The notes under the pieces: model-generated | Databases searched by the model: none | Told to the model about the DNA's origin: nothing | What the model saw: the letters and a program-made list of their open reading frames with translations, nothing else | NCBI RefSeq assembly: GCF_963675165.1 | Contig: NC_087377.1 | Coordinates: forward strand, 12,448,632-12,512,631 | Direction: 5' to 3' | Length of the DNA stretch: 64,000 bases | Source of the DNA: Halichondria panicea | Lineage: Eukaryota > Porifera > Demospongiae > Suberitida > Halichondriidae | Shown: in pieces, positions 14,090 to 64,000 of the stretch | How positions within the stretch are numbered: the stretch's first letter is position 1 | Layout: every line of letters starts with the position of its first letter | Position numbers and translations under genes: made by a program

Positions 14090-15575
14090 ATGACAGTTCT
14101 TCTGATATGCTTTCTGGCTGGCTCCTCCAGCACTGGTAAGACTGACTAGATTCCTTATAAGCTTACATTGCTGCATGCTTTGTAAAGCCCAATATTCAGT
14201 GAGTGTGGAGAAACCATGTCCAATGGAAACAGTCACTTTCACTTGTATCCTTTCCTCCTTGAGTCTCAATGTACCACTAATGCAGCCAGATTGCAGTTGA
14301 TAACACTACTTTAACATCTACTCTGTCTAGAACAGCAGAGAATGGAATCACTGTGTCCTGTATGGGGTTTGTGCCTGTAAGCACTATAGGGTCTTCAACA
14401 GTTCAATTGATTGGTGAGTTGCAATTAGTATCTTGTCTATTGTCTGTATATACACTAAGTTACATAGATCCACCAGGACCACCATCCACCATAAGACACT
14501 CCACTCCGAGTAGCTTAGCCAATGAAGTCAGTGTATCTGTACAATGGGACCCTCCTACTGAGACTGGTGGTAGAGATGACCTCACCTACACAGTGACCAT
14601 CTCACCTCCGGCCCAGCTCTCTGCTACTGTCCTCACATCTACCTCTGTCACTGTGACTGCTCAATACAATGTGGACTACACTGTCAGTGTTGTGGCTACC
14701 AACTGTGCTGGGAGCAGTACAACTGTTGTGTACAACTTTAGGATTGGTGCGTCGACATCGTTTAAACAGCACATGCACTACACTGACTCCCTCTTGTGCA
14801 GGTGGCTGTCCTGTGTTGACTAACCCCCATAAATGGAGCATTTGGACCAACCACCAGCAGATTATCAGGATCCACGGTAACTATCCAGTGTGACGCTGGA
14901 TATGTATCTGCTGTTACAATGGTGATATGTGAGGGTACACTGATGTGGAGTACACACCCTGAGGCTATTGAGTATACATCACTAACCACACCTACTCCCA
15001 CAACTCGTGAGTTAAGTTCTTGATTGTAGGAATTAAATACAAAATATCTATGTTAATCATTACACAACTCCTCCAATAAACTGCACAGCTTCACTATCCC
15101 CACCACCACGGAATGGCACCATCACTATTCCCGGCACACAAGTTACCCTCCATTGTGACGATGAACTGTTCCCTGAGGGAATAATGGCTGCTACCTGTCT
15201 AGCTACAGGAAAGTGGGACGAGGAGATTGTCTGCAGAGGCAAGCGTATTCGAATACACTTGTAATCATGTTCTCTCTTGAACCACCTACAGCTGCTCCTT
15301 GTAATTGTGCCAGCCTATCTGATGGGAGTCGATTTGATGCAGCTGTCTCCATCAGCGTTGTTGTCACGGCAGTTGCGTTCACAATCATTGGATTGTTGAT
15401 GGGACTCTTGATCATGTATTTGCTCATACATAAGAAGGCAGTGTACTCCCCAGCAGCTAAAGGACAAGCTAACGTAGGACCCACTCCACCAGCTGGTCCT
15501 GTTTATGAGGAGGTGTCACCCAAAGAGGAGATTGAACTGAATACTAACCAGGCATATGGACCAGTAGGAGTGTGA
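14090..15575 (+). pseudogene. Subfamily X receptor pseudogene (Ig, FN3, 2 CCP, TM, tail)
   Basis: Exon-by-exon match to the gene at 55.4-56.8 kb: signal exon 14090-14135 (MTVLLICFLAGSSSTG), Ig exon 14200-14413, FN3 exon 14468-14746, CCP exon 14802-15006, second CCP exon 15068-15238, TM/tail exon 15292-15575. Lesions: the Ig exon lost a net 74 bp and now reaches a stop; the first CCP exon has an extra C (AACCCCCAT), shifting frame, and its last cysteine is changed to tyrosine (GAGTAT); the acceptor before the second CCP reads ACACAA instead of ACACAG. FN3, the second CCP, TM and tail remain open, and the tail still ends NQAYGPVGV. It also keeps a GC-AG intron after the second CCP. Transcripts might still be made, but a full receptor cannot. 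Confidence 0.75.
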
Positions 15576-15636
15576 AACATGCGTTAATGTGCATGCTCAT
15601 GACGATTTTAACAACTGTAAACAGCAACATCTGTTC

Positions 15637-15645
15637 ATTAAAAGC
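15637..15645 (+). terminator. Candidate poly(A) signal of subfamily X genes
   Basis: The phrase TTCATTAAAAGCCACTA, with an ATTAAA variant signal, lies about 60 bp past the stop. The same phrase (TTCATTAAAAAGCCACTA) occurs about 95-105 bp past the stops of the genes ending at 49197 and 56802. Confidence 0.4.
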
Positions 15646-15845
15646 CACTACATCTTTTGAAAAAGCTATATTAAACGAGTGGTGCGCTGTGCTATAATGC
15701 CTCTCGCCATGTTTAGCTTCGCTAAAAAAGTAGAGTGTTATAATAATAAGCAAACTAATACTTCTTCTTTATAATAGTTAGACAGTGTCTAAAATCATAT
15801 AATACGATTGTATTAGTTTGCTTTGTATACTGTTATGTTATTACT

Positions 15846-16195
15846 ATGCCTCGGTGAAGCAAGGTATACGGTAGTGTGCATGTGTGTGTGTGTGTCTTGT
15901 GTAGACTGCTACAGCTGCTTAAGGATAAATGGAGTGCAAGTAAGAGTCTATAGGCTTCTGGTAACATTTTCTTGGATTTTGATTCGTGGATTTTCGTTCT
16001 CAAGTTATGCCTGGTTTTGCTTACTGGGAATGCCATTGCAGCCTTTTCAGAAGAGTGCGTAGCAAAACTTGTCCGTGGAGTGTTGCTACTCTACTTAGTA
16101 GTTAGCTCTGCGCTAGAACGCTAGCTATTGGTAGCTGCAAGAGTAAGAAGAGAGCTGCAATTAAGGCTCTACATGCAGCAGCCATTAATTTAGAC
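15846..16195 (+). repeat. Dispersed repeat R1, copy 3
   Basis: Reverse orientation relative to copies 1 and 2, starting near ATGCCTCGGTGAAGCAAGGT and ending past CTAGCTATTGGTAGCTGCAA. From 16196 to 17820 I see no gene; near 17230-17345 a G-rich phrase (GGGTCCGGGGGCATGCTC) looks like decayed transposon sequence. Confidence 0.65.
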
Positions 16196-21013: not shown

Positions 21014-23129
21014 ATGAATGTACTCATAATGCAGCTGAAAGTGAATTTACTGTTGATATTCTGCACCAGTGCATACGGAGAGTTGGCGAGTAAGCTCAAA
21101 TAAAGTATTAAGGACAAATACATGCACGCAAAAATCTAAACTATAATTATATGTAATATAGATTGTATACTATAACTGATTAATGCACACAATAGAAATT
21201 GAGGCTCCATTTGTCTACAATGCCTACTTAAACCAGCCGGATAATGGAGTGTTTGTATGTTTGGTAAGAAATGGTGGATCAGCTCGCTGGATAGTAGATG
21301 GACAGCAGGCAGACAGTGTTCCAATACTATCCAGAGAAATTACTGTTACGTATGATCTGAATCAAGTGCCTGGGTACATTACAGCAACCATTACAATTCC
21401 TGCTACTGTTGTTAATTCAAATGGTGTCACCTGCAAATGCAGACGATACACATCTATTGGCTTTGTTGAAGCCTATGAAACAGCTAAGTTTTATGTTCAA
21501 GGTAAATCAGATATATATTCCCGTGCATGATATAGATATTGGTATATAGCTACTAGCTAATACTTCATGAGCTATTCCTCCTATAATATATCACAGGAAT
21601 TCTCCAGATGTCATCAAACTACACAGTAGCACGTTACAATAAATCTCATAACAGAGTGTCTTGGACAGAACCCTTTTCACTAAATATTACTGCTGTCCAG
21701 CAAGATATCTTTGGTTACACAATTTGTACTGACGGTCTGACAGCAATTGAGCAACTACAGTGTATGAACACAACAACAGCAGAGATTATTCTTCCCAAGT
21801 ACTGTGTTGACGTCAATTACTTAACAGTTGGTGCCTGGAATATTGTGGGAGAAAGTAACACAGTTTTATTTGCAGTTGAGCGTGAGACCACAGGTGAAAA
21901 TACTTCACTCTCAGGTAAGTATAAACAGTGCAATGTTTTACACACGCCTGCATGACATGTAAGTTTCACACAATCTACATTCAGAAGCGATTGCTGAAAT
22001 ATCGTTCAGCGGCAACGAAACTGAAATCAACATAATCTTTAATGACTCTGAGGTAAACATATAAATCCTTCATGCATGGTGTCCATAAGATCTCCAAAAA
22101 AATATTTTACAGCTTGAATTGTGTCTTTGTGTATTTCAAGTCACCATTTTTCAACTTACAAGCAACTCAATTGTCTTCAAAGGATTTATATATAGTATCT
22201 ATGAATACTTGACGATAGTGTGTAACCTTCCACACAACGAGACGTTTTTGGCCAATGTTAGCTGTTCTGATAATAAAATTGAGCACTCAAACATTCCTTT
22301 TAGTAAGTTTTCAGATGATGTTGTGCTGCCATAACATAATGACATAATTATAAAAAAAATACTATTTTCAGGTACATACGATATTCAAAACGTAGAAATC
22401 ATTGTGAGAGGAAATAATGTCACTGTCACTTGCTGGTTTGCTAGAGGGACAACTGCTCGTGGCTTTAAGATTGACATTCTGGGCGTTGAAAATCGTTTAG
22501 TGATTTCTATGTTTGTCAGCATAAATGAAACTTGTGTAAAAGGTTGTTCATACAGTGTAGATGTGGAGGTTGGTAATTTCACCACTACTGTTTATAATTG
22601 GGAACAAGATGGTGGTATACGCAGAGTGTACAGTAGAGAGATTGTTATCATAACCCTCAAGTCCAACTCAACAACAGAGAGTACAGTTATTAGAAACATT
22701 ACTGACTTGGACCCCATTACAACAGTACACTGGGGTAATTATACTGTAACTTCAACCATAATCGGTGCAGGTGTTATTGGAGGTTGTTCTGGTGGAGCAG
22801 TTTGCTGCATTATATTCATTACTGTAACATTAGCAGTGTTGTTCAAGAAAAGAAGGAGAAAATCAAAGAAAAGTGAGTAGATTTCCCAAGATAATTACTT
22901 TAATAAGCCATTGCACCATTGCACCACATATACAGCGTTCGAAGTCAGCAACTGTGAAGCATACTCTATTGTATTGAATATGAGAAAAAATGAAGCGTAT
23001 AATGAAATTTGTATTGCCAACCATTCACAAATAATTGCTACGGAGCCACATCTGTATGATGTCATAGAAAATGCTCAAGGATCACCTACACTACCTACAG
23101 AACCTTTGTATGCAGAAATACGTGTATAG
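21014..23129 (+). CDS. Ig/FN3-type receptor with multi-tyrosine tail
   Basis: Seven exons join in frame (21014-21089, 21196-21501, 21597-21914, 21985-22052, 22113-22302, 22372-22872, 22936-23129) to give 550 residues. A signal peptide (MNVLIMQLKVNLLLIFCTSA) is followed by an Ig-like domain (26-127: VFVCLVRNG, W, NGVTCKC), an FN3-like domain (128-233: RVSWTEPF, FGYTIC, NIVGESNT), two small exons of unknown fold, a second immunoglobulin-like stretch (NNVTVTCWF) and a TM near 449-477 followed by KKRRRKSKK. The tail (487-550) holds YSIV (Y496), YNEI (Y508), YDVI (Y527) and YAEI (Y545), candidate SH2-docking sites. All introns are GT-AG; one is phase 0, the rest phase 1. It is not a close paralogue of the sushi receptors. 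The 22113 exon is the least certain. Ligand and function are unknown. Confidence 0.75.
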
Positions 23130-26666: not shown

Positions 26667-28838
26667 GTGGTGGTATTATTTGTTGCTACAGTTACAGGAC
26701 TAGTGCTTGGTATAGGTATGTACAATTAATTATCATAGTTGTCCTTAATTTACTTGTTACGTATGATGTTTTTTATAGGTCAGGTGGTTGAAATTGCTTC
26801 AGATTTAGACGCAGCCGGTCGTAACTTTTCCTGCACTGGTGAAGTTGTCACATACACTTGTAGCGCTCAAGGAACCACCCTGTTTGTACAGTTTCCACCA
26901 TTACTAAATCAGCAAGCATTCATTAGCAGTGATCCTGTTCCTGATGTTCAGACATTCCCTACTGCTCTGAATGTTATTCTGACCCTGACAAGTGGAATGC
27001 CCAATTTTACTTCAAACCTGCAAATCAGAGTGTCAAGTGATCTGCAGCAGATGAATTTTTCCTGTTCTACGGACATTTCTGGCCCTCAGAACGATTTTGT
27101 ACTAACACTAATTCATGAAGGTAAGTTGTCATGCCGTATATATAGCGGGTAACTTTCGTTGGTGAAAATTTCGTATGAGTGAAATATTTCGTATAGGCTA
27201 AATATTTGTACAGCTCAGAATAGTGACATAGAACCTACGAAAATGTCCACCATACGAAAATATCCCGCTATAATTATATGATTATCCTTTTATATACAGC
27301 ACAAATCGAGCCACCTTCCACTGTGACATTCTCTGGAGACACGACAGTATCATGGACCCCACCTTTGAACCCCCAGTTTGACATTGATTATTATATTGTG
27401 AGAATTTACGTGGATGGAGTGCTGTACACAACTAGGAGCTCTCGTGATAATGGTCTGGACGTTACGTTGCCTTCTGGAGAAATCACTGCTGATGTTCGTA
27501 CTGTTAGCACTTGTGGTAGCATTAGCGCTGCACAACAGTCAGTGGGATCAATCTCAGGAGGATGTGCAAATGAATCAGTCTCTGCTGCAGGTTTGTTTGC
27601 TTCTGAAAAAAAATTATGTTTATGCCCAGCTCACAAAATTGTACGTAATAGTTAGCGCTGAATCAATGCACTCATTTCTTGTACGATAAAATCTATGCTC
27701 TCTCTGTAGCATTTTATGCCGGCTGGATTTTTTGGTTTTTACACTAATTGTTGTTTTCATCATCAAATATACGAACATTTCCACCATACGAAAATAACCT
27801 GCTATAATTATATATACAGTATATCCTTTCATGTACAGCAAAAATTGAACCACTGTGACATTTTCCGGAGACATGACAGTATCATGGATCCCTCCTTTGA
27901 ATCCCCAGTTTGACATTAATTATTATATTGTGAGAATGTACGTGGATGGAGTGTTGTACACGACTAGGAGCTCTCGTGATAATGGTCTGGACGTTAAGTT
28001 ACCATCTGGAGAAATCACTGCTGATGTTCGTACTGTTAGCACTTGTGGCAGCATTAGCGCTGCACAAAAGTCAGTGGGATCAATCTCAGGAGGATGTGTA
28101 AATGAATCAGTCTCTGCTGCAGGTTTTGTTTGCTTCTAAAAAAAAATTATGTCTATGCCCAGCTCACAAACTTGTACGTAATAGTTAGCGCTGAATCAAT
28201 GCACTTATTTCTTGTACGATAAAATCTATGCTCTCTCTGTAGCATTTTATGCCGGCTGGTTTTTACACTAATTAAATTTTTTGTTTTCATCATCAAAAAT
28301 ACAAACATTTCCACCATACGAAAATAACCTGCTATAATTATATATACAGTATATCCTTTCATGTACAGCAAAAATTGAACCACCTCTCACTATGACATTT
28401 TCCGGAGACACGACAGTATCATGGATCCCTCCTTTGAATCCCCAGTTTGACATTAATTATTATATTGTGAGAATTTACGTGGATGGAGTGTTGTACACAA
28501 CTAGGAGCTCTCGTGACAATGGTCTGGACGTTAAGTTACCATCTGGAGAAATCACTGCTGATGTTCGTACTGTTAGCACTTGTGGCAGCATTAGCGCTGC
28601 ACAACAGTCAGTGGGATCAGTCTCAGGAGGATGTGCAAATGGATCAGTCTCTGTTGCAGGTTTGTTTGCTTTTGATATATCTATGCCTAGCTCACAAAAT
28701 TGTACGTAATAGTTAGCACTGAATCAATGCACTCATTTCTTGTACGATAAGAGTATAAAAAATTATGCTCTCTCTGTAGCTGGCTTTTTGGTTAGCACAC
28801 TAATTGTTGTTTTCATCACCATCGCTGTTATCGTATAG
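26667..28838 (+). CDS. FN3-repeat surface protein with C-terminal hydrophobic end
   Basis: Exons recognised: 26667-26715 (hydrophobic, LFVATVTGLVLGI), 26779-27120 (Ig-like: NFSCTGEVVTYTCSAQG ... MNFSCSTD), 27300-27590 (FN3 a), 27839-28122 (FN3 b), 28369-28659 (FN3 c), 28780-28838 (AGFLVSTLIVVFITIAVIV then stop). The start exon was not found. FN3 b lacks 7 bp near its 5' end and runs into a stop, so a working protein needs FN3 a spliced to FN3 c, which keeps frame because all are phase 1. The protein would end directly after the hydrophobic segment with no cytoplasmic tail, preceded by small residues (NGSVSVAG), which fits a GPI-anchor signal; a tail-less TM is the alternative. FN3 units read VSWTPPLNPQFDIDYYIVRI. 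Confidence 0.55.
27300..28838 (+). repeat. Tandem triplication of FN3 exon with flanking intron
   Basis: Units start at 27300, 27839 and 28369 (spacing 539 and 530 bp). Each contains the FN3 exon, then intron with GTACGTAATAGTTAGC, then a copy of the terminal hydrophobic exon. In the first two units that last exon is decayed (GGCTGGATTTTTTGG... near 27720 and 28255) and is followed by a scrap of the ACCGTATAGCG MITE family (CCACCATACGAAAATAACC). Confidence 0.85.
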
Positions 28839-34049: not shown

Positions 34050-35937
34050 ATGCAGCTACAAACAGTTATTATTTACAGCACCCAGTTGTTCGTACTGGCT
34101 GCAGGTGAGTGTTGCATGTGTGCATGTGGCATATAGCTATATAAAACTTGATTTAGCTATACATTTATATTTTTGCAGCCACTCTGACATCCACTCCCAC
34201 TGTGTCCTGTCCTGGTGACACTGTCACCTTTACCTGCACTCTACCTGGTAGTCTCATACGATGGAAAGTCACTCCTCCAACGGTTCAAGGAGCTTCGTTT
34301 AGATTGACTTTAATATTCACCGGCAGTGTAAATGTCGCTGTGACTGAGGGTAATCCAGCATTCCGTGGTGTTCTCACTGATTCCAGTGGAGGAATGCTCA
34401 CTGCCACTCTAACCTCACTGTCTGAGGCCTCAACTGTGGAGGGATTTATGGTGGAGTGTGAGGGAGCAAGCTCACAAGAGGGTCCCCTCACTATCACTAT
34501 GGCTGGTGAGTGGCTGGTGGAGTGCATACATGCCATGTACACGTGCATTCTCAGTTTATCAATACACTCATGCACAGATTCACCCTCCCCTCCACTTAAT
34601 CCAAGGGTGTCCTCCTCAGCCCAAAACCAACTCAGCTCCTCTATTATCACTCTGGAGTGGGACCCTCCCTCCTCTACTGGTGGTGTGTCTGTCAGCTATG
34701 TCCTCATCATCTCCCTAAAACCTCTCTCCAAGTCACCAGTCACCGTGGAGACCACCTCAGCACAGATAACTGTCTCCTACAACACTCCCTACAATGTGAC
34801 AATCAGAGCTGTCAACTGTGCTGGAATGAGTGACGATGATGTGATGATGATGATTCTTCCTATTGGTTAGTTTCTATTAGCTGATCTCTTAGTGTATAAT
34901 ATTGTTTGCTACAGTTACCTGCCCCTCCAACCCAACACCTGCAAATAGAGTGACCATCAATGGTGCTCCACCACTGCCTGCACTAGTAGGATCAACACTG
35001 AGCTTCACTTGCAATGGAGAGACAGTACCAGCAACCTGTGAGAATGATGGGCGGTGGTTACCTGATCCTACCAGTTACCTCTGTCCCTCGGGTAAAATTA
35101 TTGGTGAATCACTGTCATGATTGTTACTATATAGCCCCTCCTCTCAGATGTCACCTGTGGCTTTCCTGTCGCACCTTCCAGAGGCAGTGTGGACGTTAAG
35201 GGTCGGACATTGCCCTTTTCGATAGACTCAGTGGTAAACTTATATTGTGACAAAGGACTATTCCCAGCTGGTGATATGTCCAGTACGTGTGAAAATGTGG
35301 GTGGAGTAGGAACTTGGAAGCCGGACACGAACATCACATGCAGAGATATGCCTGGTGAGAATGCCATTGGCTAAACTTGTTGCGTGTATTATTAACATCT
35401 AATTTACGTTTCACCGCAGTCAACTGCTCTCTACCCAAAAAGCCATCCAACGGAACAATAGTGAACTATGAGAGTTTGAATGAGACAGTATCGGAGGGAA
35501 CAGTGCTGACTTACCAGTGTGACAATGGACTCTCACTGACTGGACCCAACACCATCACTTGCACTAATGCTGGTGTCTGGAGTACTGAGCCTGAGGCAAT
35601 CGTGTGTGTACTTGAATGTGAGTAGCGCTTTGTTAACGGTTGATTTCCTTGTTTACCTTCTCCATGCATAGATGATATTTCCGCCACCTTATCCACTGGT
35701 GCTGCTATCGTTATAAGTGTGATCATCACTTTCATTGTGACTCTAGTCACTGGATTCCTCACTGGACTCTTAGTGATGCACCTTTGCTCCCGTAAGAAGG
35801 CAGCTGAAGGACAAGCTAACGTAGGACCCACTGTACCAGCTGGTCCTGTTTATGAGGAGGTGTCACCCAAAATGGAAATTAAACTGAACAGTAACCAAGC
35901 ATATGAACGGTCAACCAGTGTATACGTAGGACTGTGA
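34050..35937 (+). CDS. Subfamily Y receptor: Ig, FN3, three CCP, TM, tyrosine tail
   Basis: Seven exons (34050-34104, 34179-34505, 34578-34865, 34915-35091, 35148-35354, 35420-35617, 35672-35937), all joined in phase 1, give 505 residues. Signal peptide 1-18 (MQLQTVIIYSTQLFVLAA); I chose this ATG by match to the copy at 41082, and an ATG at 34036 is out of frame. Ig-like domain 19-127 (CPGDTVTFTC, W, VECEG); FN3 128-223 (ITLEWDPPSSTGG, YNVTIRAVNCAG); CCP modules 224-282, 283-351 and 352-417, each with four cysteines and a tryptophan; TM about 428-455; tail with CSRKK, Y478 (VYEEV), Y495 and Y502. The C-terminus is SVYVGL, which fits the ITIM consensus and differs from its paralogues. The gene appears intact. 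Sushi modules usually bind proteins or glycans; ligand unknown. Confidence 0.85.
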
Positions 35938-37340: not shown

Positions 37341-39171
37341 ATGATGGTGAACTTGTTAGTGATCAACTTCAAGTATCTTCTGTTAGTAGTATTGATTAGC
37401 TCTCAGATGGGAGGTATGAATAACAAGCTAGGTGTATTTTGATGTTTGAATGAACCTGTTCCATTTCAACACAGAGGCCTCTCAGACTCTAGTGTCCAAT
37501 ACGAGTGTGGTGTGTCCTGGAGAGAGTATCCACTCTCATCAACCTCAGTGAAGTATCTGTACTGGATGGTAGCAATGTCACCTGTTCTATTTTCGATTCA
37601 AATGGTACTGATGTTGAACTACAGACAATAATGGTTGCTGGTGAGTAGCTGTTATTATCTTTATTATCAATCTAGCACTGCTTATGTTTACACACAGGTA
37701 ATTCAACCTCTCCATTAAACCCAAGAATATCCTCCTCTCTAAATCAACCCAGCTCATCCATTGTCATTCTGGACTGGGACACTCCCTCCTATACTGGTGG
37801 TGTGTCCGCCAGGTATGTCCTCATCATCACCCCAACACCTCTCTCTGGGTCACCAGTCACCGTGGAGACCACCTCAGTACAGATAACCATCTCCTACAAC
37901 ACACCCTACAATGTGACCATCAGAGCTGTCAACTGTGTTGGAATGAGTGAAACTAGAATTGTGAATCTGGGTAAGTTAATAAGAATTTATACATTGTTTA
38001 TATTCCTTCTCTGTAATACAGTGGTGTGCTCCACACCGTCTATACTTCTGCTGGTGTGACCATCACCAACACACCTCCTGTCACTATTGGTGGATCCATG
38101 CTCATTTTCACTTGTAGTGGAGACAATGAAGTGAGAACCTCAACCTGTGGCAGTAGCGGGTGGTCTCCTGACCCTGGGACCTTTGACTGTGGCATCCCAC
38201 AGCCAGTTACAGGTATCACACATGCATGGGCAATTAACTCTCTAAAAGGAATGTTGATCTCATGCATTAGATCCCCAAGTCAGCTGTGGTTCTCCTGCTG
38301 CACTGTCTAGAGGTAGTGTGGATATCAGTGGTGGGACATCACCCTTCTCACTGGGTTCACTGGTTAGCTATCGTTGTGACAAGGGACTATTCCCCCCTGA
38401 TGTGAGGACCAGCACATGCACTGATGTGGGGGGTAGGGGAGAGTGGGTGGACAATCCTGGGAGCTTGAGGTGTAGGGAGAGGCCAGGTAAAACGTAGCTG
38501 TTTAGAGGCAATTTTTTGATTTCCTTCGAAAAAGTTCATTCTATAGACGTGCAATTGTATTAGTTTACGTACACCGCCTTTGTTCCACATTTCTAAGTAT
38601 TCAATGGCAGGCTATTGAGTGCTCGTAATACAAACATATCATTTTCTGACCGTCCATATAGTCAACTGCTCTCTTCCTGCTGAGCCCTGCAACGGTGCTA
38701 TAGTGGACTATGAGAGATTGAACAACACAGTGTTGGAGGGAACAGTGCTGACTTACCAGTGTGACAATGGACTCTCACTGACTGGACTCAACACCATCAC
38801 TTGCACTAATACTAGAGTCTGGAGCACTGAGCCTGAAACAATCATGTGTGTGCCTAGGACTGAAGGTCAGTAATTGTTTGCTATTCCAAAAATACATGCA
38901 GTCATACTATCCCCTCTCACAGTTTCTACTGTCGCTATCAGTGTGGTCATCACTTTCATTGTCACTCTAGTCATTGGATTCCTCACTGGACTCCTAGTGA
39001 TGCATGTTTTCTCTCGTAAGAAGGCAGTATACTTCCCGGCAACTGCATGAAGGACAAGCTAACGTAGGACCCACTGCACTAGTTGGTCCTGTTTATGAGG
39101 AGGTACCAGTATCACCCAAAGAGGAGATTGAACTCAACACAAACCAGGCGTATGGACCGTTAGGACTGTAA
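37341..39171 (+). pseudogene. Subfamily Y receptor pseudogene
   Basis: Exons 37341-37413 (signal), 37475-37640 (Ig), 37698-37970 (FN3), 38022-38212 (CCP1), 38280-38486 (CCP2), 38662-38865 (CCP3), 38923-39171 (TM/tail) match the intact gene at 41.1-43.1 kb. The Ig exon has lost its middle and is 166 nt, so it shifts frame. CCP1 has a 2-bp insertion (TCTATACTTCTG). The tail exon has a 4-bp insertion (ACTGCATGAAGG) giving TGA at 39048-39050, before VYEEV; the remnant tail also carries a 6-bp insertion. FN3, CCP2 and CCP3 stay open, and CCP2 uses a weaker acceptor (CCCCAAG). Because exons are phase 1, skipping the Ig exon would restore frame only as far as CCP1. Most likely non-functional. Confidence 0.8.
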
Positions 39172-40479: not shown

Positions 40480-40938
40480 ATGGTGAACTTGTTGATCAAG
40501 CATCTTCTGTTAGCAGTGATGATTGGCTCTCAGATAGGAGGTATGAATGCAAAACAAGATATATTGTGTTTCATGTGTGATTGAAGCTGTTCTACTACAG
40601 AGGCCTCATTAGCGTCCAACACGAGTGTGGCGTGTCCTGCATGGAGATGCAGTTCTGCTCACATGCTCTAAGCCTGCCCTGCATTGATATGGCAAGTGGA
40701 TCCTCCAGCGATGTCTGGGTTGATGTCAGTTCAAAGTACATTCTTTATTGGTTCTCAAGTTGGTCGAAGGAGGGACACATTAGGATCAGGAGTGATCATG
40801 CTTGAGGCTGTTCTTGTAAGCAATGATGGTGGAACTCTGACGTCCACCCTAATCAACCTCAGTGAAGTGTCTGTACTGGAAGGAACCAATAATTTTATTA
40901 CCTGTACTATACATTTATATAGATCTAGTTGTGTATAA
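40480..40938 (+). pseudogene. 5' fragment of a subfamily Y receptor
   Basis: A signal exon (40480-40540, MVNLLIKHLLLAVMIGSQIG) is followed by a damaged Ig exon from 40601. That exon has a GCAT insertion after TGTCCT and a second indel before ATATGGCAAGTG; an in-frame TAA lies between. The distal half remains open (LTSTLINLSEVSVLEG) but no donor matching the paralogues is present. A complete gene with its own signal exon begins 144 bp downstream. The 40480 exon could still act as an alternative first exon for that gene, since phases agree. Confidence 0.65.
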
Positions 40939-41081: not shown

Positions 41082-43067
41082 ATGCAAGTACAGGCAGTTA
41101 TTATCAGCATCCAGCTGTTTAGTCTTGCTGCAGGTAAGTTATATACATAGATCATCATCTATGTGTTCACTGGAACACACAATTTGTTTCAGCCACACTG
41201 ATATCCACTCCCCCTGTGGCCTGTCCTGATGACACTGTCACCTTCACCTGCACTCTGCCTGGTAGTCTCATACGATGGACAGTGACTCCTCCACAAGGCC
41301 AAATGTTCCTTGTCACTTTGAGTACCAGTAACACTGAGGACACACAAGGTAATCCAGCATTCCGTGGTGTTCTCACTGACTCCAGTGGAGGAATGCTCAC
41401 TGCCACTCTCACCTCACTGTCTGAGGCCTCCATTGTAGAAGGAACTATGGTGTTGTGTGAGGGAGCAAGCTCACAAGAGGGTCCTCTTACTATCACTGTG
41501 GCTGGTGAATGGATGATGGAATGTATGTAGAGTTATATCTATAGTCAATACACCTACAGATCCACCCAGCCCTCCACTGAACCCAAGAGTGTCCTCCACT
41601 CAAAACCAACCCAGCTCCTCCATTATCACTCTGGAGTGGGACCCTCCCTCCTCTACTGGTGGTGTGTCCGTCATGTATGTCCTCACCATCTCCACAACAC
41701 CTCTCTCCGAGTCACCAGTCACCGTGGAGACAACCTCTGCACAGATCACTGTCCTATATAACATTCCTTACAATGTAACCATCAGAGCTGTCAACTGTGC
41801 TGGAATGAGTCAAGAAAGTCTAATTGTGGATCTTAGTAAGCCATTCCATGGTCGTAATTATTATAACACATGTATGTATATTGTACTCTTTCTTAGTTTT
41901 GTGCCCCACACCGTCTACTGCTGCTGGTGTGACCATGACCAACACACCTCCTGTCACTATTGGTGGATCCATACTCACCTTCACTTGCGGTGGACCCAAT
42001 GAAGTGATAACCTCAACCTGTGGCAATAACGGGTGGTCTCCTGACCCTGGGACCTTCGACTGTGGCACCCCAGTTACAGGTATCATATACACGGGCAATT
42101 AACTCTCCAAAAGGAATGTTGATCTCATGCATTAGATCCCCCATCAGTCACCTGTGGCTCTCCAGCTGCACCGTCTAGAGCCAGTGTGGACATCAGTGGA
42201 GGGACACCACCCTTCTCACTGGGTTCAGAGGTCACCTTCCACTGTGATGAGGGACTGTTCCCCCCTAATTTGAGGACCAGCACATGCACTGATGTGGGGG
42301 GTAGGGGAGAGTGGGTGGAGAATCCCGGGAGCTTGGTGTGCAGGGAGAGGCCAGGTGAAATGTAGTTGTTTAGAAGCTTGATTTTGCCGTCAAAAAAAGT
42401 TTATGTGACTGCATGATATGTGTACAATTGTACCGCCTTTGTTCCACATTTCTTAGTATTCTGCAATTATGGCAGGTCATTGGGTGCTCATGTTGAGCTG
42501 ATGAGATACAAAGATGTATATTCACAGTTATTTTCTGACCGTCCCTATATAATTATAGCCAACTGCACTGTACCTGCTGAGCCGTGCAACAGTGCTATAG
42601 TGGACTATGAGAGGTTGAACGAGACAGTGTCGGAGGGAACAGTGCTGACTTACCAGTGTGACAATGGATTCTCACTGACTAGACCCAACACCATCACTTG
42701 TACTAATGCTAGAGTCTGGAGCACTGAGCCTGAGGCAATCATGTGTGTAGGTCAGTAATTGTTTGCTATCCCAAAATTAATACAGTCATATCTCACAGTT
42801 TCTACTGTCGCTCCCTTGTTCTCCACTTCTGCAACTGTCGCTATCAGTGTGGTCATCACTTTCATTGTCACTCTAGTCATTGGATTCCTCACTGGACTGC
42901 TAGTGATGTATCTTTTCTTTCGAAAGAAAGCAGTGTACTTCCCAGCAACTGAAGGACAAACTAACACAGCGTCCACTGCACCAGCTGGTCCTGTTTATGA
43001 GGAGGTGTCACCCAAAGAGGAGATTGAACTCAACACAAACCAGGCGTATGGACCATTAGGACTGTGA
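41082..43067 (+). CDS. Subfamily Y receptor: Ig, FN3, three CCP, TM, tyrosine tail
   Basis: Seven phase-1 exons (41082-41133, 41193-41504, 41560-41835, 41897-42079, 42148-42354, 42559-42750, 42799-43067) give 496 residues. Signal peptide 1-17 (MQVQAVIISIQLFSLAA); Ig-like 18-121 (CPDDTVTFTC, W, VLCEG); FN3 122-213 (ITLEWDPPSSTGG); CCP modules 214-274, 275-343 and 344-407; TM about 419-447, flanked by FFRKK; tail with VYFP, VYEEV and QAYGPLGL. No lesion was found. It is closest to the gene at 34.1 kb in the Ig and FN3 exons and to the pseudogene at 37.3 kb in the CCP exons, so its history is mosaic. Donors are GT, including two GTCAGT/GTATCA types. Likely a cell-surface receptor with SH2-type signalling; ligand unknown. 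Confidence 0.85.
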
Positions 43068-45908: not shown

Positions 45909-46568
45909 CGTGATAACTTTGGATTCTAAGCACACCGTCCATGAGGCACTCAAAGTAATCGCACACCCAATCAAAAAATACACTTTAATGGCCAAAGACT
46001 TTTCCCTGCATGCAAAAATCCCATCACCCACTCACCACTTTGTGGATGTACTGCTCAACCAGCTGCACTACCCTGGTCTGTGTGACCACCCTCCAGGTCT
46101 CCTGAGAGTAGAGCCTTACACCCTCAGCCACATATTACCTGAGAGGAAGGGAGAGATAGTGAAATACAGTGGAACAATGAACAAATAACCTTCAAAGAAA
46201 AGGGACACTGTAATAATAAGGAAAATGCTTTCGTGTCGTAAATATCAATAAACAATAGACGTACGAAATCAGTCAACCAATATGCACATTTTGTACTTTG
46301 TAGTGTTGTTTTCACACGATCAGCTGGTGTAACTCAAATTAAAAGCCATGTGTAGTTAGCTAGCTGCAACATACAATCAAATATAAGGTGAGTAGATTTG
46401 GTTATAATATAATAATAGGTGCCTTACATGTGTAATAAATATATAGGTGTCGTACTAAGAGAGAGGATGAACAATATGAGAAGGCTATTTATTATGCTAA
46501 CATAATTATTATGGAAAAAATATATAGGTTCTATAATAACAGGTCTATATATAAGTTGCATTTAGCGT

Positions 46569-47395
46569 GTACACTGTATGGTGATGTCGGTATGTACACT
46601 GTAGTGATGTCGGTGTGTACGATGTTGGTGTATATACACTGTATAGTGATGTTGGTGTGTACACTGTATAGTGATGTTAGTGGGTACACTGTATGGTGAT
46701 GTTAGTGTGTACACTGTATATGGTGATGTTAGTGTGTACACTGTGTGGTGATGTTGGTGTGTGTACACTGTGTGGTGATGTTAGTGGGTACACTGTATGG
46801 TGATGTTAGTGTGTACACTGTATGGTGATGTTAGTGTGTACACTGTATGGTGATGTTAGTGTGTACACTGTATATGGTGATGTTAGTGTGTACACTGTAT
46901 GGTGATGTTAGTGTGTACACTGTATGGTGATGTTAGTGTGTGTACACTGTATGGTGATGTTTGGTGTGTGTACACTGTATATGGTGATGTTAGTGTGTAC
47001 ACTGTATATGGTGATGTTAGTGTGTACACTGTATGGTGATGTTAGTGTGTGTACACTGTATATGGTGATGTTAGTGTGTACACTGTATATGGTGATGTTA
47101 GTGTGTACATGCACTGTATGGTGATGTTTGGTGTGTGTACACTGTATGGTGATGTTTGGTGTGTGTACACTGTATGGTGATGTTTGGTGTGTGTACACTG
47201 TATGGTGATGTTTGGTGTGTGTACACTGTATGGTGATGTTTGGTGTGTGTACACTGTATGGTGATGTTTGGTGTGTGTACACTGTATGGTGATGTTTGGT
47301 GTGTGTACACTGTATGGTGATGTTTGGTGTGTGTATACTGTATTTGTGATGTTTGGTGTGTGTACACTGTATGGTGATGTTGGTGTGCGTACACA
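46569..47395. repeat. Minisatellite, 24-28 bp unit
   Basis: More than 30 head-to-tail units of GTGTGTACACTGTATGGTGA plus TGTTA or TGTTTG. The left two thirds mix 24- and 26-bp variants; the right third is homogeneous with 28-bp units ending GTTTGGTG. The unit has a palindromic core, GTGTACAC. Open frames on both strands here are by-products of the repeat. Confidence 0.95.
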
Positions 47396-47777
47396 ACGAG
47401 GTGTTTAAGCAAACTAGATACTTTCATGGACTGTTTTAACTGCTTGAGACAGTGGTTGAGGTTGAAATTTGTAGGCGATCTTCAAAGGCGATAAAAAACA
47501 CTGATATAATCTTATATAGATTCACAGTCATTCCCCATAATGATGTTATAATTAAGTCAAAAAGTTATTGTATCTGTTTTTACAGCTGTGTGCGTGCAAT
47601 GAAGCTCAAAGCACGGGATAAATGCTCTATGAGCATCTTGTTATGATTATATTGTCTACGAAAACTGGAAGCGTAATTAAAAGAAGCTATGAATAAATTA
47701 TCATAAAGGAAGTAAACAAGGCGGTTGTGTAGTAACAATCACATTGAAACCTTATCACTGTCAAGAAATAATTAGAG

Positions 47778-49197
47778 ATGACACTAATAGAGATAGAGCT
47801 CATTAGAGTTCTTCTGATTTGCTTTCTGGCTGGCTTCAGCACTGGTAAGACTGACTATTCAATTTCCTTACATTGCTGCATGTCGATTATAGATTTCCTT
47901 ACATTGCTGCATGTTTCATAAAGCACAATATTCAGTGAGTGTGGAGAGACCATGTCCAATGGAAACAGTCACTTTCACCTGCACTGCTGCTGGAGATTCC
48001 TTGGTATGGGTACTGTCAGATGTAACTCACACAATCACTATCCGCTCCACCTCTGGTCTCAATGTACCCAATGTTGTATCAGGTTACACTGTGACACTGA
48101 TTGCATTCAACGACACTACATTAACATCTACTCTGTCAAGAACAGCAGAGAATGGGATCACTGTGTCTTTAACAACTATAGGATCTTCAACGATCCTATT
48201 GGTGGGTGAGTTATTGCAGTTAGTGTCTCGTCTATTGTCTGTATACAATAAGTTACATAGATCCACCAGGACCCCTGTCCACCATCAGACACTCCATTCT
48301 GAGTAGCTCAGCCTTTGGAGTTAGTGTATCTGTACAGTGGGACTCTCCTATTGAGACTGGTGGTAGAGATGACCTCACCTACATAGTGACCATATCACCT
48401 CTGGCCCAGCTCTCTGCTACTGTCCTCACATCCACCTCTGCCACTGTGACTGCTCAATACAATGTGGACTACACTGTCAGTGTTGTGGCTACCAACTGTG
48501 CTGGAAACAGTACAACTGCTGACTACAACTTCAGAGTAGGTGAGTATATATATTTTTTGCACACAGTATCAATTGATCCTCTTAGGCAGCTGTCCTGTGC
48601 TGACCAACCCCATAAATGTAGCCTTTGGACCAACCACCAGCAGATTACCAGGATCAACAGTAATCATCCAGTGTGATGCTGGGTATGTGTCTGCTGTTAC
48701 AATGGTGACATGTGAGGGCAGTACACTGATGTGGAGTCCAGACCCTGACACTATTGAGTGTACATTACTAACCACACCTACTCTCACAACTCGTGAGTTA
48801 AGCTCTTGGCTGTATATAGTTATATAGATATTAATTCTATTACACAGCTCCTCCAATAAACTGCACGGCTCCACTATCCCCACCACTTGAACCACCTACA
48901 GCTGCTCCATGTAATTGTGATTGTAATTGCGCCAGCCTATCTGATGGCAGTCGATTTGATGCAGCTGTCTCCATCAGTGTGGTTGTCACGGCAATTGTAT
49001 TCACGATAATAGGATTATTTGTGGGACTCTTGATAATGAATTTGTTCGTGCATAAAAAGAATGTGTACTCCCCGTCACCTAAAGAGCAAGCTAATGTAGG
49101 ACCCACTGCACCAGCTGGTCCTGTTTATGAGGAGGTGTCACCTAAAGAGGAGATTGAACTGAACACTAACCAGGCGTACGGACCAGTGAGACTGTGA
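47778..49197 (+). CDS. Subfamily X receptor: Ig, FN3, one CCP, TM, tyrosine tail
   Basis: Five phase-1 exons (47778-47844, 47936-48205, 48261-48539, 48586-48792, 48848-49197) give 390 residues. Signal peptide about 1-22 (MTLIEIELIRVLLICFLAGF); Ig-like 23-112; FN3 113-205 (ATNCAGNST); CCP 206-274 (GSTVIIQCDAGY, VTCEG); stalk from 275; TM about 315-342; tail with Y348, Y368 (VYEEV) and Y385 (QAYGPVRL). The Ig exon lacks 21 nt present in the paralogue at 55.4 kb, which removes the second Ig cysteine (ITVS then LTTIGSS). The second CCP is gone and its first residues run straight into a stalk with CNCDCNC. The frame is open throughout, so the gene can be expressed, but the Ig fold may be altered. 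Confidence 0.82.
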
Positions 49198-55393: not shown

Positions 55394-56802
55394 ATGTCAC
55401 TAATAGAGCTCATTGGAGTTCTTCTGATTTGCTTTCTGGCTGGCTTCAGCACTGGTAAGAACTGAGTATTCAATTATAGATTTCCTTACATTGCTGCATT
55501 TTTCGTAAAGCCCAATATTCAGTGAGTGTGGAGAGACCATGTCCAATGGAAACAGTCACTTTCACCTGCACTGCTAATGGAGATTTCTTAAGATGGGAAT
55601 CGTCAGATGTTTCTTTCATCACTATTCGCTCCACCTCTGGTCTCAATGTAGCCAATGTTGTATCAGGTTACACCGTGACACTAATTGCATTCAACGACAC
55701 TACGTTAACGTCTACTCTGTCAAGAACAGCAGAGAATGGGATCACTGTGTCCTGCGTGGGCCCACTGCCTACTCTAACCACTATAGGATCTTCGACAATC
55801 CAATTGGTTGGTGAGTTGCAGTTAGTGTCTCGTCTATTGTCTGCATACACTAAGTTACATAGATCCACCAGGACCACCTTCCACTATCAGACACTCCATT
55901 CTGAGCAGCTCATCCAATGAAGTCAGTGTATCTGTACAGTGGGACCCTCCTACTGAGACTGGTGGTAGAGAAGACCTCACCTACACAGTGACTGTCTCAC
56001 CTCTGGCCCAGCTCTCTGCTACTGTCCTCACATCCACCTCTGTCACTGTGACTGCTCAATACAATATGGACTACACTGTCAGTGTTATGGCTACCAACTG
56101 TGCTGGGAACAGTACAACTGCTGACTACAACTTCAGAGTAGGTGAGTATATATATTTTTTGCACAGTATCAATTGATCCTCTTAGGCGGTTGTCCTGTGC
56201 TGACCAACCCCATAAATGTAGCCTTTGGACCAACCACCAGCAGATTACCAGGATCAACAGTAACCATCCAGTGTGATGCTGGGTATGTGTCTGCTGTTAC
56301 AATGGTGACATGTGAGGGTACACTGATGTGGAGTCCAGACCCTGAGGCTATTGAGTGTACATCACTAACCACACCCACTCCCACAACTCGTAAGTTTAAG
56401 CTCTTGGTTGTATATATAGTAATGGATATTCTTATACAATTCTATTACACAGCCCCTCCAATAAACTGCACGGCTTCACTATCCCCACCACTTGAACCAA
56501 CTACAGCTGCTCCATGTAATTGTAATTGTAATTGCGCCAGCCTATCTGAAGGGAGTCGATTTGATGCAGCTGTCTCCATCAGCGTAGTTGTCACGGCAAT
56601 TGTGTTCACAATAATAGGATTATTTGTGGGACTCTTGATAATGTATTTGTTCATGCATAAGAAGAATGTGTACTCCCCGTCAGCTAAAGAGCAAGCTAAC
56701 GTAGGACCCACTGCACCAGCTGGTCCTGTTTATGAGGAGGTGTCACCCAAAGAGGAGATTGAACTGAATACTAACCAAGCGTACGGACCTGTAGGACTGT
56801 AA
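55394..56802 (+). CDS. Subfamily X receptor: Ig, FN3, one CCP, TM, tyrosine tail
   Basis: Five phase-1 exons (55394-55454, 55523-55810, 55863-56141, 56186-56389, 56453-56802) give 393 residues. Signal peptide about 1-20 (MSLIELIGVLLICFLAGFST); Ig-like 21-116 with both cysteines (CPMETVTFTC and ITVSCVGP) and W; FN3 117-209 (VSVQWDPPTETGG); CCP 210-277 (four cysteines, LMWSPDPEAIEC); cysteine stalk CNCNCNC; TM about 318-345; tail Y351, Y371 (VYEEV), Y388 (QAYGPVGL). No lesion seen; this is the best reference for subfamily X. As in the gene at 47.8 kb the second CCP is missing, and the codons for LEPTT before the stalk match the end of an intron in its two-CCP relatives. A conserved leader precedes the ATG and an ATTAAA follows the stop. 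Confidence 0.87.
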
Positions 56803-58815: not shown

Positions 58816-58859
58816 AGGGGGAGGGAGAGATAGTGAAATACAATGGAACAATAACGAAG

Positions 58860-59967: not shown

Positions 59968-59976
59968 GGTAAGACC

Positions 59977-60505
59977 ATAGATAGAGTAGAGAGGGATTGG
60001 AAACGGAAGTGATTCACGTGATGTTTTACAATGAAGTCTACGTAGTGGCTCTGGGACCATCCGTGTATCTCCTCATAACTCCCGCAAAAGCCCGGGAAAC
60101 TTATTGTGTCAAGCATACATCTCAGAGCTACCCCCATTACTGAATCACATGCCCCCTGATAGTAGGTATCAATTGGAAACAAAGAAAATATTATCTCGAT
60201 TGTCGTGAAGTAGCTAGAGGTACACAGAGCGCTTTTTCATGCTTGTGTTCCTATAGTGCCTTTGATATAGCTAAGGCGTTGTAACTAAATAGTGTCCTGT
60301 GTCCCAAATGGCCTCAAGTATTAGAGAAAGTTAATGTTTAGCAGCAGAACTGCTCGTGGACTTTTTTACAGAGAGCAACACAATTCTAATAAATTATTCA
60401 TGTTTAGCCCTCGCGTTAAAAAGTAAGCCTCGATTAAAACCGCGGAGATACACAGATGGTACTTCGAGGGTACTTCCGTTTCCAATCCCTCTTTACTCTA
60501 TCTAT
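59977..60505. mobile_element. Non-autonomous TIR element with 9-bp TSD
   Basis: Ends read ATAGATAGAGTAGAGAGGGA and, inverted, TCCCTCTTTACTCTATCTAT, about 34 bp with few mismatches. A perfect 9-bp duplication GGTAAGACC flanks the element (59968-59976 and 60506-60514). It is MULE-like by target-site size; no transposase. A truncated relative lies near 36.8-36.9 kb. Confidence 0.82.
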
Positions 60506-60864
60506 GGTAAGACCTAACCCTATAACCACTAAAAATCATGTGGTCAATTAAAATGTTTTTTCCAATTACTGAATTCTGTATTGTGGTACCGTAGTTTATG
60601 TAATTAATTACAGCGCCAGTCTAATTGTTGGCCATAATTATACTACCATAATAATTATGTTTTATCATAGATAGAACTATCTATGGGTTTCAGTCTCACA
60701 AAAATAATTATGGCACTGTAATTACATCATATCTCTGTCAGAAGGAACCCCAACCCCGCTGAGTCGGCACTTTAATCGCATTCCTGAGCATTCTTGAGTG
60801 TTTATCTTTCTTGTATAATACGTCTCCTGGTCTAGTCTATGAATCATCTGAGTAGTTCATTGCC

Positions 60865-60932
60865 AGACTACCTCGATTCCAGGCTGCGAAGAGAAAGGCT
60901 TTCTCTTCGCGGCATGGAATTGAGGCTATTGC
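60865..60932. repeat. Hairpin of the CCTCGATTCCAGGC family
   Basis: CCTCGATTCCAGGCTGCGAA and AAAG pair with CTTTCTCTTCGCGGCATGGA and onward, almost without a loop. The sequence just downstream (TAGCTTCGATCCCAGGCCGC) is another end of the same family. From 60935 to 61510 no gene is seen. Confidence 0.65.
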
Positions 60933-61510
60933 TACACTGCACCGTACCTAGCTTCGATCCCAGGCCGCTCTTCCTCGAAGAGGCCTTGTGAAGGAGTCTA
61001 CACCGTGCAATGGCTACTTGCAGGAGACTGGGAACCACTTGACCTTAGCTAAGGTGGATTTATCCAAACTTCTCTTGCAGACTGCTTCAAGTCTAGTTTT
61101 TGTGTCTGTAAGTTTAAAACATATTTTGCAGGGGTCAAATATTTGCCAATTTTAGAGATATAATCAAAAGTCTTGCTCTTGTACTAGCCTCGATATCGTG
61201 TGCGGCTTGTTCTCGAGGTCACCGCACAGCTTGGCTTTGATATTATTATCTCTGCTTCTGAGCAAAATTGGCGAAAATAAAATTTGACCCACCCCTGAAA
61301 AATAGCCATAAATCCTCATTCACACCTCTAGTTTTCTCGGCATGTAGTCCAGTGGAGGCATGGCCCGGCAAGGAGGCCTCAGTTGTAGTGAAGAGATTGT
61401 CTGCATGCTAGTTGGGCGGAGTCCAACCCTCTACGTAGTTGGTAGTTGGGCGTGGCTCGACCGTCCCCTCCCGTCAGGGGACGCTCTATATAGCGCTTCT
61501 TATGTCAAGT

Positions 61511-62330
61511 TAGATGGGCGTGCCCGTCCCCAGCCATAAAATGGGGGGACGGGTTTCAGTCCTTGTTCTGCCATGCAGCACCAATCAGATTGCAGACTGC
61601 TTACGTAATACATTTCAGCACCAATCAGATTGTATACATGTAGTTCTTACGTAATGCATTCCTTGGCTTAGATAAATAGAACTTTTTATTTGGGCAGGAA
61701 ATGCTGCATCCACAGTGTGGGTTTTAATGCAGGTCCTGTATACTATATAGACATGAACAAAAGACAAGAAAGTAGAAAAATAATGGCTTAGTTGCAGTTG
61801 CATGGAGAACAGTTTGTGTATATACTGTTCTTGAATGCTGGTACTGTTTTTGTTTTCTTGAGTTCTTGAGGAAGCGCATTGTACTTGAGAGCTCCTTGAA
61901 AACTCGGTGGATGGTCTTGGAAGGTGGAGGTTATCTTGTCCACGAGTTGTTACTTGTGCTTGTCTGCTACTGTGTTCAGAGTTCTTTGTGAATAGTTCTT
62001 GCAAGTACTTAGGTGCAGTTTTAATGATGCTGCGGTGGACTTGTACCAGCATAAGCTCTTCTCGACGCTGTTCTAGAGTAGTCCATCGCTACGCAGCGGT
62101 GAACTTGGAATGACCCTCATGCCATAATTCTGGATGCTCTCAACTTGATCTTTGAGCTTGCTGCTTGCTTGCTTCCCAGCTCCTCCCCTTCTCTGCAGCA
62201 AGCTGAGCTCTGTGGTTAGAGGCGCGGTTAATATTAACTCATAGTTAGTACGGGAACATCAGAAGGAATGCTGATAAGGCTGAAACCCGTCCCCCCCTTT
62301 TTATGGCTGGGGACGGGCACGCCCATCTAG
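61511..62330. mobile_element. TIR-bounded element containing LINE sequence
   Basis: The left arm TAGATGGGCGTGCCCGTCCC and the right arm, its complement ending GGGCACGCCCATCTA, pair over about 50 bp; both go on to GACGGGTTTCAG. No clean target duplication is seen. The element ends 85 bp before the start codon of the last receptor. Confidence 0.65.
61640..62165 (-). mobile_element. LINE reverse-transcriptase C-terminal remnant
   Basis: The minus strand, with two frameshifts, reads VESIQNYGMRVIPSSPLRS, then LEQRREELMLVQVHRSIIKT, APKYLQELFT, and after a shift QGALKYNALPQELKKTKTVP. This is the usual order at the C-terminal end of non-LTR retrotransposon polyproteins. It is not functional and lies inside the inverted-repeat element. 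Confidence 0.6.
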
Positions 62331-62414
62331 ATTAAAGTATAGTACAAGTCAAGTCTGAGTGTATTTATACAAAATACCTTCAAGTTACAGTGTAACTTCG
62401 CAAGAGGAGATCTC

Positions 62415-64000
62415 ATGGCTGTTAAGATATGGCATTCTTTTGTCTTCAAAATATTGGTGTATGCTGGTAAGCTAATCTAGTCTCTCTAGACAGTGAATTA
62501 ATAAGTATTCCACTCTCACAGTTATAATACAATGGTTGGTTGCAGGTATACGCTTGGTGCTTGGTGGTCTGACTCGTGACTACACTGAAACCCCCTGTGC
62601 TGGTGATATGATCTCCCTCACTTGTACAGTGCCTGGGGCTTTACTGGAATGGGACGTGCCTGAACCAACGAGGGACATACAACTTGATGCTGGATCTGTA
62701 GTCCCATTCCAACGAAATCAGTACACAATTAACACAGCTGTGTTGACGTTGAATTCCACCAGTTCAATGTTCTCCTCCAGTTTGAGTTTCCCTGCAACGG
62801 ACGGGATCACTATTGGTTGTTTTCCTCTAACAGAGCCAATGATGAGGAACGAACTCACCATACTGACAGCAAGTAAGGTTCTGGGTTCTGTAGAGACATT
62901 ATGACAGGACTATGAACCTTTTCTCTACAGCTGCTCCTTTACAACCGAATGGATTCAGTAACTCAATTTTGAGTACTTTAGCAAACAAAGTTAATGTTTC
63001 TGTTCGTTGGGATCCTCCTAATGGCAGAAATGATATCACCTACACAGTGACTATCTCACCTCCGGCCCAGCTCTCTGCAACTGTCACCTCTGTCACTGTG
63101 ACTGCTCAGTATAATGTGGACTACACTGTCAGTGTTGTGGCTACCAATTGTGCTGGGAACAGTACGGCAGCTGAGTACAACTTTAGGATTGGTGAGTTTT
63201 ATTTTTGACACACAGTGTCAACTCCTCCTCAGGCAATTACTGTCCTGTGTTGACCAACCCCATGAATGGAGTGTTTGGACCAACCACCAACAGTTTGCCA
63301 GGATCCACGATAACCATCCAGTGTGATGCTGGGTATGTGTCTACTGTTACAATGGTGACATGTGAGGGTACACTCATGTGGAGTCCAGACCCTGAGGCTA
63401 TTGAGTGTACATCACTAACCACACATACTCCCACAACTCGTGAGTTAAGCTTGTGGCTGTGTATGGATATATTAATTTTATTTTGTGTTAATTTTTCACA
63501 CAGTCCCCCCTCAAATGAATTGCACAGCTTCACTACCCCCACCACGAAATGGCACCATCAGTGGTCATTCAGTACCAGCTATTCCTGGTACACGAGTGGC
63601 CTTTCAGTGTGACGATGGACTGTTCCCTGAGGGAATAATGACTGTCACCTGTCTAGCTACAGGAGAGTGGGACAGGAACACGGGGGAAATTGTCTGCAGA
63701 GGCAAGCGTATTTATTACTTGCATACACTTGTAATCATAATTATTCTCTCCTGAACCAACTACAGCTGCTCTTTGTAATTGCGCCAGCCTATCTGATAGG
63801 AGTCAATTTGATGCAGCTGTCTCCATCAGTGTGGTTGTCACGGCAGCTCTATTCACAGTCATTGGATTGTTGATGGGACTCTTGATAATGTATTTGCTCA
63901 TGCGTAAGAAGGCAGCGTACTCCCCGTCAGCTGAAGGTCAAGCTAATGTAGGACACACTGTACCAGCTGGTCCTGTTTATGAGGAGGTGTCACCCAAAGA
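62415..64000 (+). CDS. Subfamily X receptor with two CCP domains (cut by window end)
   Basis: Exons 62415-62466 (MAVKIWHSFVFKILVYAG), 62546-62872 (Ig-like: CAGDMISLTC, W, ITIGC), 62931-63191 (FN3: VSVRWDPPNG), 63233-63439 (CCP1), 63504-63701 (CCP2: FQCDDGLFPEG, CLATGEWD), 63766 to the window end (stalk, TM, tail to GPVYEEVSPK). All joins are phase 1. The intron after CCP2 starts GCAAGC, a GC-AG intron, as in the pseudogene at 14.1 kb. The signal and Ig exons differ strongly from the other X genes while FN3, CCP1 and the tail are close to them, so the 5' part may have been exchanged. The stalk has the short CNC form. No lesion is seen; the last codons lie outside the window. Confidence 0.8.

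Follow-up and report, generated by a model that had tools for sequence, protein, structure and literature searches.

The window analysed here is a 64,000-nucleotide stretch of the genome of the sponge Halichondria panicea (131.5 Mb in 39 contigs), spanning positions 12448632-12512631 of a contig that we call C1. It contains a set of related genes, the intact copies of which are predicted to encode a type I membrane receptor with an immunoglobulin (Ig)-like head, a stalk of fibronectin type III (FN3) and one to three sushi domains, one transmembrane (TM) helix and a short tail. Seven exons with the tail motif VYEEV are found in the window, all on the plus strand (at 15501, 35848, 39091, 42993, 49123, 56728 and 63975, the last of which is clipped by the window edge), and together with one 5′ fragment they make a total of eight copies. 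This bears out an earlier note on this DNA, which had proposed at least eight related plus-strand copies, five open and three broken: the open ones lie at 34-36, 41-43, 47.8-49.2, 55.4-56.8 and 62.5-64 kb, and the broken ones at 14.1 kb, at 37.3 kb and, as a fragment, at 40.48-40.94 kb.

The genes are built as a series of phase-1 exons that runs from a signal peptide through Ig-like, FN3 and one to three sushi exons to an exon for the TM helix and the tail. Direct reading of the DNA at 34-36 kb and 62.5-64 kb gave a separate exon for the Ig-like, FN3, sushi and TM-plus-tail parts, with AG/GT borders and phase 1. An exon finder that combined splice scores, a required phase of 1-1 and similarity to the window exons found exons in the order Ig-FN3-sushi(1-3)-TM/tail in the copies of the window and, completely or partially, in the loci fetched from the rest of the genome. 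Including the signal peptide, the spliced readings of three open window copies are 503, 369 and 390 residues long, and those of three open loci outside the window (L069, L083 and L076) 502, 508 and 498 residues. Signal peptides are alike among copies of the same type: type B has MTLIEI..LIRVLLICFLAGFST, one type-A group has MQVQAVIISIQLFSLAA and another MVNLLV..LLLVV. Repeated blocks of 150-300 nucleotides follow VYEEV tail exons.

Copy 1 (14090-15575) is broken; it has a signal peptide exon (14090-14135), an Ig exon split over two frames, FN3 (14477-14746), sushi and TM/tail (15292-15575). The open, type-A copy 2 (34050-35937) consists of a signal peptide-like exon (34050-34103, assigned by a 72% match at 34050), Ig (34179-34505), FN3 (34578-34865), three sushi exons (34915-35091 or 35103, 35148-35354 and 35420-35617) and TM/tail (35672-35937), in which the second tyrosine motif is altered. 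Copy 3 (37344-39171), also type A, is broken: its Ig exon is not open and its TM match contains one TGA, and it also has a signal peptide (37344-37413), FN3 (37698-37970), two sushi exons (38271-38486 and 38662-38865) and a tail (39091-39171). The 5′ fragment (40480-40935) retains a signal peptide (40480-40540) and the remains of an Ig exon, without an FN3 or a tail of its own. The intact type-A copy 4 (41082-43067, 503 residues) has a signal peptide (41082-41133), Ig (41193-41504), FN3 (41557-41835), three sushi exons (41897-42079, 42136-42354 and 42553-42750) and TM/tail (42799-43067).

The remaining three copies are of type B. Copy 5 (47778-49197, open, 369 residues) comprises a signal peptide (47778-47844), an Ig exon that lacks the second Cys (47936-48205), FN3 (48270-48539), sushi (48586-48792) and TM/tail (48902-49197). 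Copy 6 (55394-56802, intact, 390 residues) has the same series at 55394-55454, 55523-55810, 55872-56141, 56186-56389 and 56453-56802. Copy 7 (62546-64000), which carries a third type of Ig, is open and clipped by the window end: Ig runs to 62872, FN3 occupies 62931-63191, one sushi exon 63233-63439 and another starts at 63504, and TM/tail starts at 63766; a signal peptide exon was looked for in this copy and none was found. A minisatellite that reads CTLYGDV/YMVMLV lies upstream of copy 5 (46560-47420), and a similar one is located upstream of the gene in L072 (near 2624-2714 of that locus); gene and minisatellite may hence have been duplicated together. Cys6 of the Ig domain (e.g. at 55540) and the single Cys of FN3 recur in the compared copies without an obvious partner within their domains; they might form a disulfide bond with each other or across chains.

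The window is a small part of a much larger array. When the tail was searched against its own genome, the best 150 of 281 candidates were all on C1, between 11.27 and 14.93 Mb, with E ≤ 3.3e-14, and these E values together with the single contig exclude a chance origin. At least 150 matches each were obtained with the type-A TM, the type-B TM and a divergent TM/tail query. After merging positions within 400 bases, C1 has at least 195 TM/tail loci between 11.249 and 14.928 Mb (148 on the plus and 47 on the minus strand, with a median gap of 6.7 kb), a number that is a lower bound for TM/tail exons and not a tally of working genes; 170 of them were matched by the tail query or the divergent TM/tail query. 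The type-B Ig query found 131 places and the type-A query 147, partly shared or split and nearly all on C1. One further copy (L079) is on contig C7, where it holds pieces only of Ig and FN3. Other loci are incomplete too: Ig and FN3 are both missing from L077, which has two tails in its 4.8 kb, and from L080, which has one tail, and several of the 3.1-kb loci are truncated or clipped on their upstream side. Judged by its sequence, the 3.7-Mb cluster contains roughly two hundred or more related genes for cell-surface receptors, counting gene remnants. The clustering is thus larger than the earlier note had claimed, and the gain and loss of copies that it had described is evident as well.

Some of these loci are nearly identical. 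L081 and L082, which are 717.6 kb apart, differ by one mismatch and four gap columns over 4.8 kb, four neighbouring loci repeat at an offset of 1,426,755-1,426,758 bases, and three loci at 11.996-12.004 Mb repeat 567.3-567.5 kb further on. Such blocks may have arisen by segmental duplication in the very recent past, or they may be duplicates made by the assembly. The near-identity of L081 and L082 at that distance and the recurrence of the four-locus block would fit a copy number inflated by uncollapsed haplotypes. However, the tested block offsets touch a minority of the 195 loci and many loci are clearly distinct from one another, as the spread of identities among the Ig and TM/tail matches shows, and such inflation is a very improbable explanation of the copy number.

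The stalk domains were recognised by Pfam in all six proteins searched: fn3 (PF00041) at E ≤ 0.0012, above the curated cut-off in three of them, and Sushi (PF00084) above the cut-off in every one. For the head, a moderately confident AlphaFold2 model of the type-B Ig matches V-type Ig domains, and the predicted structure displays the features of the V set, i.e. an Ig beta-sandwich, a disulfide between strands B and F, a Trp in strand C, and strands C′ and C″. A search of the Ig sequence against the PDB gave nothing significant (best E 0.063); 25 of its 26 weak matches are named antibody or heavy chains and one is a lectin. Type-A and type-B Ig sequences are 30-31% identical. The heads of the family appear to be V-type Ig domains where modelling worked, that is in type B.

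The head is the variable part of the protein. Among the 10 type-B genes with all four exons (L082 was excluded from the exon-wise comparison of identity and substitution rates), the mean amino-acid identity is 0.77 for Ig, 0.85 for FN3, 0.84 for sushi 1 and 0.87 for TM/tail, and Ig is less identical than these three exons in 35, 35 and 40 of the 45 pairs, respectively. In the four type-A genes, the mean Ig identity falls to 0.52 and is uncorrelated with that of the other exons over the six pairs. Furthermore, the variation in 13 type-B Ig exons, measured as entropy, is concentrated in the BC-C-C′-C″ and FG segments, as it is in V domains (15 of 21 type-B Ig exons were within the length limits used, and 13 entered the entropy analysis). 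The variable ectodomain on a fixed tail described in the earlier note is supported: Ig is the least conserved exon, and its variation follows the pattern of V domains in type B, the one type of Ig analysed in this way.

The synonymous divergence (dS) in the same 10 type-B genes is also highest in Ig (0.34, compared with 0.19 in FN3, 0.15 in sushi 1 and 0.29 in TM/tail), and as dS is higher in the head, constraint at the protein level alone cannot explain the difference between head and tail. In pairwise nucleotide profiles of L069, L070 and L081, identity is 91-99% from within the first sushi region through the tail, counting the introns; it is about 75-84% in FN3 and about 43-73% in Ig, and upstream of the gene the sequences are unalignable. 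A likely cause in type A is that the 3′ half has spread or undergone conversion. L034 was considered as an example of a head swap and rejected: the part upstream has no recognisable Ig or FN3, and the locus looks like a 5′-truncated copy.

The tail is strikingly uniform. Its core, VYEEV..YGP, is almost invariant across the family, and in the windows VYEEVSPKEEIELNTNQAYGP the ratio of nonsynonymous to synonymous differences (pN/pS) is 0.02-0.04 among 19 type-B tails. In 39 of the 41 modelled last exons, 13 residues separate YEEV from the next Tyr, and the other two lack the motif or lose it to a cut; the 39-kb window copy, which is not among these 41, has 15 residues between the motifs, two extra. 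The second YxxΦ motif is kept in 31 of the 32 distinct full tails that remained when two exons without [V/I]YEEV, two that were too short, one that was cut and four identical in DNA had been dropped from the 41. The exception is the 35.8-kb window copy, the tail of which (35840-35937) ends in NQAYERSTSVYVGL, and with this second motif changed its signalling may differ. The shared VYEEV/QAYGPxGL tail of the earlier note is real but not fully universal, with deviations in these two window copies. The Src-family SH2 optimum is YEEI, close to YEEV, and the genome has 71 SH2 domain matches at E ≤ 0.001; on these grounds we prefer a model in which a Src-family kinase would phosphorylate the tail and SH2 proteins would dock to it.

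The explanation that we consider probable, by a moderate measure of confidence, is that the family consists of recognition receptors whose heads have diversified while the SH2-docking tail has stayed constant, and that they would serve in immune or self/non-self recognition. The diversified heads would bind many ligands, either on microbial surfaces or on other sponge cells, clustering of the receptor would cause a Src-family kinase to phosphorylate the tail, and SH2 proteins would dock to it, so that many specificities would lead to one output. The anatomy and the genomic scale are firm; ligand binding, phosphorylation, the output and the biological role are what we infer. More tentatively, and with the odds rather against it, the cluster could be a histocompatibility-like sponge complex of about 200 loci, in which diversified V heads are joined to a homogenised sushi-TM-tail cassette, and the strategy of many heads on one tyrosine tail would then be present in sponges or independently invented there. 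Self/non-self receptors of sponges are not established, and a 3.7-Mb cluster of Ig heads with tyrosine tails offers a concrete candidate locus; it also bears on the question of whether the combination of a variable Ig head and a tyrosine tail has an ancient origin or evolved repeatedly.

Several results weigh against recognition by diversified heads on a constant signalling tail. No Pfam Ig family matches any of the six proteins at E ≤ 0.1, and because of this the label “Ig-like” rests on the fold model. The profile search suggested in the earlier note thus supported FN3 and sushi, and the Ig part of its domain order stands by the fold model of type B. The AlphaFold2 model of the type-A Ig was poor, with a predicted local distance difference test (pLDDT) score of 47, and was not taken into the fold search. 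Over whole type-B exons, the ratio of nonsynonymous to synonymous substitution rates (dN/dS) is 0.49 in Ig, 0.46 in FN3, 0.61 in sushi 1 and 0.26 in TM/tail, and as the value for Ig is not above that for sushi 1, the whole Ig exon cannot be called the least constrained one. The profiled type-B pairs show a mild (85-95% versus 95-100%) or no contrast between the 5′ and 3′ parts: the 56-kb copy compared with L017 and L021 is 85-95% identical over Ig and FN3 and 94-100% (mostly 95-100%) thereafter, the 48- and 56-kb copies are 85-98% identical with no clear step, and L024 and L025 are 92-100% identical along the gene. In the 13 type-B Ig exons, sliding pN/pS is 0.8-1.15 from BC to C″D and 0.52-0.72 in the FG windows; with values that peak at only 1.15, positive selection on the heads is unsupported. 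The limits of the Ig segments were set after the entropies had been seen, and 30 loci were chosen as the best tail matches, which biases the sample toward conserved tails. Finally, the tail has neither a canonical immunoreceptor tyrosine-based inhibitory motif (ITIM, [S/I/V/L]xYxx[I/V/L]), as GPVYEEV has P and NQAYGP has Q at position -2, nor a canonical activation motif (ITAM, Yxx[L/I]-x6-8(12)-Yxx[L/I]), as its two YxxV/L motifs, YEEV and YGP(V/L), are 13 residues apart (15 in the 39-kb copy) and the first has V at +3.

No description of the order Ig-FN3-sushi-TM-tail was recognised in the literature searched, the coverage of which was thin for subscription journals and bioRxiv. Vertebrate clusters of the KIR/LILR type share with the sponge family variable Ig heads, conserved tyrosine tails and rapid birth and loss, but they are not known to have FN3 or sushi domains and follow canonical ITIM/ITAM logic. 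By analogy, the closest known systems seem to be the fester co-receptors (FcoR) of the tunicate Botryllus schlosseri, a close functional parallel, and the Alr proteins of the cnidarian Hydractinia symbiolongicarpus, which are not known to have sushi domains. FcoR proteins have a signal peptide, a variable-type Ig, a sushi and two C2 Ig domains, a TM helix and a tail with an ITIM, a hemITAM or a core YxxI/L/V; they are encoded at 53 loci, discussed mostly in the fuhc locus and for one haplotype on chromosome 9, and FcoR/fester haplotypes vary in gene content (PMC12065747). The FcoR and the sponge family are both clustered multigene type I receptors with a signal peptide, a V Ig, sushi, a TM helix and a YxxI/L/V tail. 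However, FcoR proteins, as described in that source, have one sushi and no FN3, are 520-610 residues long and carry long tails that vary in ITIM and hemITAM, whereas the sponge family has FN3 and one to three sushi domains in place of C2, a short uniform tail and at least 195 loci. The domain order (FN3 and one to three sushi domains, no C2 domains) rules out that the sponge genes are FcoR. The Alr family comprises 41 genes and has domains of the V set and the I set; it resembles the sponge genes in forming one complex, with V-set-like heads and tyrosine motifs on candidate receptors, and differs in being smaller (PMC11999971, PMC12065747). Sponge SRCR and Ig/FN3/sushi receptors of transcriptome surveys use the same domain vocabulary, and some respond to microbe-associated molecular patterns (MAMPs) or lipopolysaccharide (LPS), but the available parts of these surveys do not describe this domain order, a common tail or a single-chromosome cluster (PMC6208332, PMC8242945).

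Two narrower forms of the favoured explanation are possible, neither of which reaches an even chance. The heads may serve microbe detection by an expanded innate repertoire, which is a serious possibility: two studies report that in Aplysina aerophoba MAMPs lower the expression of an FnIII-plus-sushi gene and raise that of sushi and FnIII genes, and that LPS-regulated genes of Halichondria include ones with sushi and Ig domains (PMC6208332, PMC8242945). These responsive genes are, however, not known to belong to the present family. Alternatively, the cluster may be an allorecognition (histocompatibility) complex, in which the heads would bind polymorphic partners on cells of the same species and decide between fusion and rejection. 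Its architecture and clustering do resemble Botryllus FcoR/fester and Hydractinia Alr, as far as these are described, and in Amphimedon queenslandica self grafts are reported to fuse and non-self grafts not to. On the other hand, the number of loci, at least 195, far exceeds that of the Alr (41) and FcoR (53) genes, several copies are truncated or otherwise broken, and a search of the Amphimedon graft paper for terms on Ig, sushi, FN3 and receptors gave no match. We hold an allorecognition complex to be somewhat doubtful. Ordinary adhesion, gamete or cytokine-type receptors amplified by happenstance are unlikely. In their favour, all three domains are frequent in adhesion proteins, there are many Sushi matches elsewhere in the genome, and positive selection on the heads is unsupported by pN/pS, but the near-invariant tail, the variation of the head in V-domain loop segments and the mosaic type-A genes better fit many specificities with one output.

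The window also contains other features. At 21180-23126 there is a different receptor-like gene with stretches that look Ig-like and FN3-like by eye and had no Pfam match, a TM helix and a tail with four YxxV/I motifs (AYSIV, AYNEI, LYDVI and LYAEI); it is not expanded, with four matches in the genome, of which two are close (itself and one of 98% at C1:13345027). At 26739-28706 an Ig-like-looking exon is followed by three near-identical exons (86-93%, spaced by about 535 bases) that are FN3-like by eye, and the two pieces tested had no Pfam match. An open frame on the minus strand (61618-62088), also without a Pfam match, resembles the C-terminal part of a non-long terminal repeat retrotransposon reverse transcriptase. 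Rfam gave no match in the window at the gathering score. Elsewhere in the genome, other dense groups of sushi domains are found on C4 (0.2-3.5 Mb), C9 (5.62-5.68 Mb) and C2 (6.45-6.48 Mb). A Peptidase_C1 match on C2 near 656 kb carries CGASYAF (exon sequence QEDCGASYAFASIGALEG), which we take to be the silicatein form of the active site and a marker of a siliceous sponge, most likely a demosponge.

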